From assembly GCA_007692665.1 (NCBI GenBank), contig REBP01000056.1, positions 1 through 64,000 on the forward strand: a stretch of DNA of 64,000 bases. The letters are read 5' to 3'. The notes under the pieces were generated by a model that saw nothing but the letters and a program-made list of their open reading frames with translations, had not been told where the DNA came from and made no database searches. This DNA is from Gemmatimonadales bacterium (lineage in GTDB: Bacteria > Gemmatimonadota > Gemmatimonadetes > Longimicrobiales > Gaopeijiaceae). Shown piece after piece: positions 30,707-31,285 of this stretch. The position numbers and the translations under genes were made by a program. Position 1 is the stretch's first letter. Each line of letters opens with the position of its first letter.

Positions 30707-31285
30707 ATGCCCCTTCCATCCGACGCCCCCCGCCTGGTCATCCATGCCGACGAATCCTGCCTGGGAAACCAGTTCGTGGATCGCGACAACCCCGGCGGGG
30801 CCGCCGGACTGGTGGAACACTGGCGCGGTGATCGCTGGGAACGGAGGGACTTCTGGCTTTCGGAGCCGGGGACCACCAACAACCGCATGGCGATCCGGAG
30901 CGCCATCGAGGCTCTGACGGCGCTCAAGGTGCCCTGCCGGGTCCGGTTCGTCTCCGATTCCCAGTACCTGGTGAAGGGAATGAGCGAGTGGATCGAGGGG
31001 TGGAAGCGCAGGGGGTGGAAGCGAAAGGCCGGGCCCATCGAGAACGTGGAGCTCTGGCAGGAGCTCGACCGCGCCGCCGCGCGCCACGAGGTGGCCTGGG
31101 CGTGGGTCAAGGGGCATGCCGGACACCCCCGCAACGAGTACGTGAACGACCTGGCCGTCCGGGCGGCGAAGGAGCAGATCGCCTCCGGCGGCCTCGTCCC
31201 CTCGGAGTTCGAGGCGTGGCTCGAGGACCAGCGTGACCGGCGGGGTCGCTACATGGACTTCATGGAGTTCGCGCCCCCGTCCTGA
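30707..31285 (+). CDS. rnhA: RNase HI family protein with altered active site
   Basis: 192 residues from the ATG at 30707; an earlier in-frame start at 30659 adds 16 non-homologous residues. The RNase H core is recognisable: ADESCLGN (Asp15), [18 protein letters not shown] (Asp84), [18 protein letters not shown] (His137, Asp148). The Glu that normally follows NNRM (Glu48 of Escherichia coli) is Ala62 here, and the Gly after the first Asp is Glu16. Insertion [10 protein letters not shown] replaces the usual NPGPGG. A C-terminal extension of about 35 residues follows. It probably cuts RNA in RNA-DNA hybrids, but activity is unproven. Confidence 0.82.

Follow-up and report, generated by a model that had tools for sequence, protein, structure and literature searches.

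The window, the 64,000-nucleotide stretch of contig REBP01000056.1 from a Gemmatimonadales bacterium that was analysed here, encodes a protein that is almost certainly an RNase H1 of the LC9 type, in which the catalytic glutamate is Glu16, located where strand 1 ends, and no longer a residue of helix A, an arrangement like that of RNase H2. The protein belongs to the published atypical 'DEDN' kind of RNase H1, so its site is already explained. Our additions to what has been published are small, namely that in the samples searched the type appears confined to Gemmatimonadota, and that the fourth active-site position has changed repeatedly between Asn, Asp and His.

The gene and its closest known protein

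Reading of the open frames in the window revealed a 192-codon frame (Table 1) whose product matches the Pfam family RNase_H (PF00075) at 1.7e-32 (113 bits, curated cut-off 25.8). This was the sole Pfam match at a threshold of 0.001, and RNase_HII (PF01351) was not matched. With the NCBIfam model NF001236 (ribonuclease HI equivalog) the protein scored 151.4 bits against a cut-off of 160, just short of what that model demands, so that it falls outside it, though it is clearly related. Profile search of the host genome gave one PF00075 match, the rnhA-like gene itself, and no second canonical RNase HI was found there with PF00075; one RNase HII (PF01351), with the active site GVDEVGRG, is encoded on another contig. 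The rnhA-like gene sits between two genes that we take, from their protein sequences, to be carA-like and lipB-like. Among the neighbourhoods of 38 RNase H loci (several of them cut short or same-genome duplicates, and one the ordinary-site locus L023), 28 had a carA match close by and 25 a lipB match. The rnhA and lipB-like frames are convergent, on opposite strands, and overlap at their ends by 37 bases (31249-31285).

The best match among solved structures by sequence is 4ibn (2.8e-53; 55% identity over 171 aligned columns), whose PDB title is 'Crystal structure of LC9-RNase H1, a type 1 RNase H with the type 2 active-site motif'. The same structure is the best match of the AlphaFold2 model (33 aligned sequences, mean pLDDT 92.5, pTM 0.88) by Foldseek (1.3e-22) and by VIA-align 2 (Z 24.4, rmsd 2.3, 185 aligned; next Z 20.9), and the top listed structure matches are RNases H1, which identifies the fold as type 1. 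The initial annotation had named an already characterised homologue with the same residues as evidence against its view of an unusual enzyme, and LC9-RNase H1, published as a type 1 RNase H with the glutamate in the type 2 place, is such a homologue. The two proteins carry D-E, Ala, Asp, His and Asn in the same alignment columns, DESCLGN followed by a longer loop, and an SGGLV C-terminal extension. Their alignment contains 9 gap positions; the loop after DESCLGN is longer by one residue in the window protein, and LC9-RNase H1 has insertions further on that the window protein lacks. LC9-RNase H1 also differs in source, being metagenome-derived according to the title of its paper (Nguyen et al. 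2013, FEBS Lett 587:1418).

Residues of the active site

The initial annotation had given the catalytic set as Asp15, Ala62, Asp84 and Asp148. Alignment agrees with the first three, and likewise with the replacement by Ala of the glutamate that normally follows TTNNRM and with Glu16 in place of Gly after the first aspartate. The fourth assignment has to be moved by one residue: NEYVNDLA aligns without gaps to NERCDELA of E. coli, with Asn147 at Asp134 and Asp148 at Glu135, and the neighbour of the fourth position (Asp148 here) is variable, being D in 33 of the 85 moved-glutamate relatives described below. This gives a site of D15-E16-D84-N147 plus the usual His137; with Ala62 and Asn147 at classical places, the departure from the classical four is at two positions and not at one. 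The protein thus lacks both the helix A glutamate and the aspartate at E. coli position 134 of a canonical DEDD site, and E16, A62 and N147 place it with the LC9 type (DEDN).

Table 1. Coordinates in the window of the rnhA-like gene and of its active-site codons and family features.
Feature	Position	Strand	Basis
rnhA-like gene, LC9/DEDN-type RNase HI, 192 aa	30707..31285	+	open frame, Pfam, 4ibn match, AlphaFold2 model
Asp15 and Glu16 codons, strand 1 end (first Asp and relocated Glu)	30749..30754	+	alignment; model strand 9-18
Additional loop, residues 22-28 (QFVDRDN), a feature of the family that varies in length	30770..30790	+	columns 22-26 empty in 21/21 ordinary-site sequences
Ala62 codon, at E. 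coli Glu48 place, within helix 58-72	30890..30892	+	alignment; model
Asp84 codon, at E. coli Asp70 place	30956..30958	+	alignment; invariant there
His137 codon, at E. coli His124 place	31115..31117	+	alignment; invariant there
Asn147 codon, at E. coli Asp134 place	31145..31147	+	alignment; N 61, D 21, H 3 of 85 relatives
C-terminal extension, residues 157-192, S-G-LV-S-F--W signature	31175..31282	+	relatives; LC9 shares extension

Comparison with E. coli RNase HI (RnhA) revealed a common fold (Z about 18.6-20.9 against the window model) and counterparts of Asp10, Asp70 and His124. However, Glu48 is replaced by Ala, Gly11 by Glu and Asp134 by Asn, and the window protein has an extra loop and a C-terminal extension. 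With RNase H2 (that of Thermotoga maritima and the host RNase HII) it shares adjacent Asp and Glu. The T. maritima structure shows this pair where strand 1 ends, as does our model, in which strand 9-18 bears Asp15-Glu16 and helix 58-72 bears Ala62. RNase H2 is nevertheless of another family, has its fourth carboxylate elsewhere and, according to PMC9719913, is without the type 1 histidine, unlike the window protein.

Exchange of the two glutamate places among relatives

In an alignment of 82 rows, D-E-A-D-H-(N/D/H) was found in 67 complete sequences and D-G-E-D-H-D in 13, the other two being partial. The 82 loci behind it included 30 of the 36 matches of one search and 30 matches (L053-L082) fetched by the pattern TTNNRMA, which requires the alanine, so that only the Glu16 of the latter is an independent observation; L002, an RNase HII, was without a match. 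Among 38 Gemmatimonadota genomes without the exact pattern, 30 had a PF00075 match, and the 29 loci newly read from them comprised 20 of the D-E-A type with small changes around TTNNRM, eight with D-G-E-D-H-D and one fragment (a further match, the second copy in G137, was left out of the locus set). After removal of 2 identical and 3 incomplete rows from the 111 aligned, 106 distinct complete sequences were counted. Glu16 with Ala62 occurs in 85 of them and Gly with Glu in 21, with no mixed case, and Asp15 is D in all 106. The two glutamate places are thus strictly exchanged, and the suggestion that a nearby acidic residue may take over is supported; every one of the 85 relatives lacking the helix glutamate has E16. 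Such an exchange over many genomes backs the interpretation published for a single crystal structure. Judged by sequence, the residue set of the window protein is not a product of chance, as it recurs across the phylum.

On a tree built without the trait columns, the switch between the two states required one change (SH-aLRT 99); this is a quick tree in which long branches meet among the ordinary-site rows. The fourth position behaves differently: within the 85 relatives it is N in 61, D in 21 and H in 3, with 15 changes on the same tree. We consider it fairly probable that the glutamate moved once, in an ancestor, that the moved form became the standard RNase HI of most Gemmatimonadota, and that the fourth ligand was thereby released to change repeatedly between Asn, Asp and His, 'DEDN' then being one state of a 'DED-x' family. 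If so, the phylum would document how a two-metal site is rebuilt in nature. The family also supplies naturally occurring sequences in which the need of RNase H for each metal ligand could be tested.

The insertion noticed at the outset, which follows N21, is real, columns 22-26 being filled in none of the 21 ordinary-site sequences, and the proposal of a distinct subfamily is supported. A C-terminal extension with an invariant tryptophan is likewise specific to the moved-glutamate family (W171 in 85/85, S160 and G162 in 82/85); it is mostly absent in the other 21 sequences.

Expected activity and distribution

The window protein is expected to be active, with metal binding and cleavage proposed by analogy with its LC9 relative and with RNase H2. 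Glu16 is in the chain position that corresponds to the glutamate of T. maritima RNase H2, which makes it most likely that the RNA strand is hydrolysed by the ordinary two-metal mechanism, Glu16 taking the part of Glu48. Asp15 and Asp84 would hold the two metals, Glu16 beside Asp15 would hold metal B and read the 2'-OH, His137 would have its usual part, and Asn147 would stand in for the less critical fourth carboxylate. E. coli RNase HI with D134N keeps activity. Mutant structures of that enzyme at Asp134 exist (1kvc, D134N). For LC9-RNase H1, mutational support for the moved glutamate has reportedly been obtained.

The initial annotation had allowed that the enzyme may bind hybrids without cutting. 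Such a dead RNase H would account for the lack of acidic residues at the E. coli Glu48 and Asp134 places, two of the four classical carboxylates, yet the complete relatives of the moved-glutamate type retain D15, D84, His137 and the new Glu16, the gene is the only one of its Pfam family in a genome whose phylum carries the type widely, and LC9, with the same site, is by its published title an RNase H1. We regard loss of cleavage as very improbable. An annotator relying on the four classical positions would mistake this enzyme, the usual RNase HI in most of a phylum, for an inactive one. A substrate range shifted towards RNase H2, with cutting at single ribonucleotides, might be proposed because the type 2 glutamate place is carried; however, the protein is type 1 in its fold, His137 and Trp-rich region, a separate RNase HII is encoded in the genome, and the LC9 enzyme is said to have properties like those of an ordinary type 1 RNase H, which leaves this shift only a slight chance, if marginally a better one than the loss of cleavage. 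Sequencing or assembly error could be suspected in a source assembly of 258 contigs, but the same residues in many other assemblies refute it, and its probability is negligible. The LC9-type enzyme with Glu16 as the catalytic glutamate is thus the reading adopted here.

In the phylum Gemmatimonadota, 333 of 395 genomes contain the pattern TTNNRMA, and the moved-glutamate type with an altered motif is carried by at least 20 of the remainder; most of the phylum has this enzyme as its standard RNase HI. Another class of the phylum (family f11) has the ordinary site in all six sampled genomes. Moved-glutamate relatives at 52-77% identity (L003-L011) come from organisms named Gemmatimonadetes, Gemmatimonadota, Gemmatimonadales, Gemmatimonadaceae, Gemmatimonas or plain 'bacterium'. 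Two other phyla were searched by pattern. In that of G402 (the genome of L013, Planctomycetia), DESCLGN was found in 3 of 294 genomes, and these matches are due to chance, since none is in an RNase H frame; in that of G406 (the genome of L020, Dehalococcoidia), TTNNRMA plus one residue was found in 0 of 301. In the samples searched, confinement of the type to Gemmatimonadota is therefore only indicated. Literature search for Gemmatimonadetes plus RNase HI found no paper, and we know of no named member of the phylum with measured RNase HI activity.

Phage or plasmid origin of the gene was considered and rejected, the best plasmid and phage matches being only 44-48% identical (best 10 of 796 and of 1,265 records; one plasmid record in the 60-80% identity band lay outside the matches inspected). 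Relatives of the window protein were searched for in viral contigs, and none was found. Two genomes of the same family, G013 (locus L023) and G187 (locus L083), encode an ordinary-site RNase HI (DGED.D) and are without the TTNNRMA pattern. At L023 the carA and lipB neighbours were not found, which suggests replacement by an unrelated copy.
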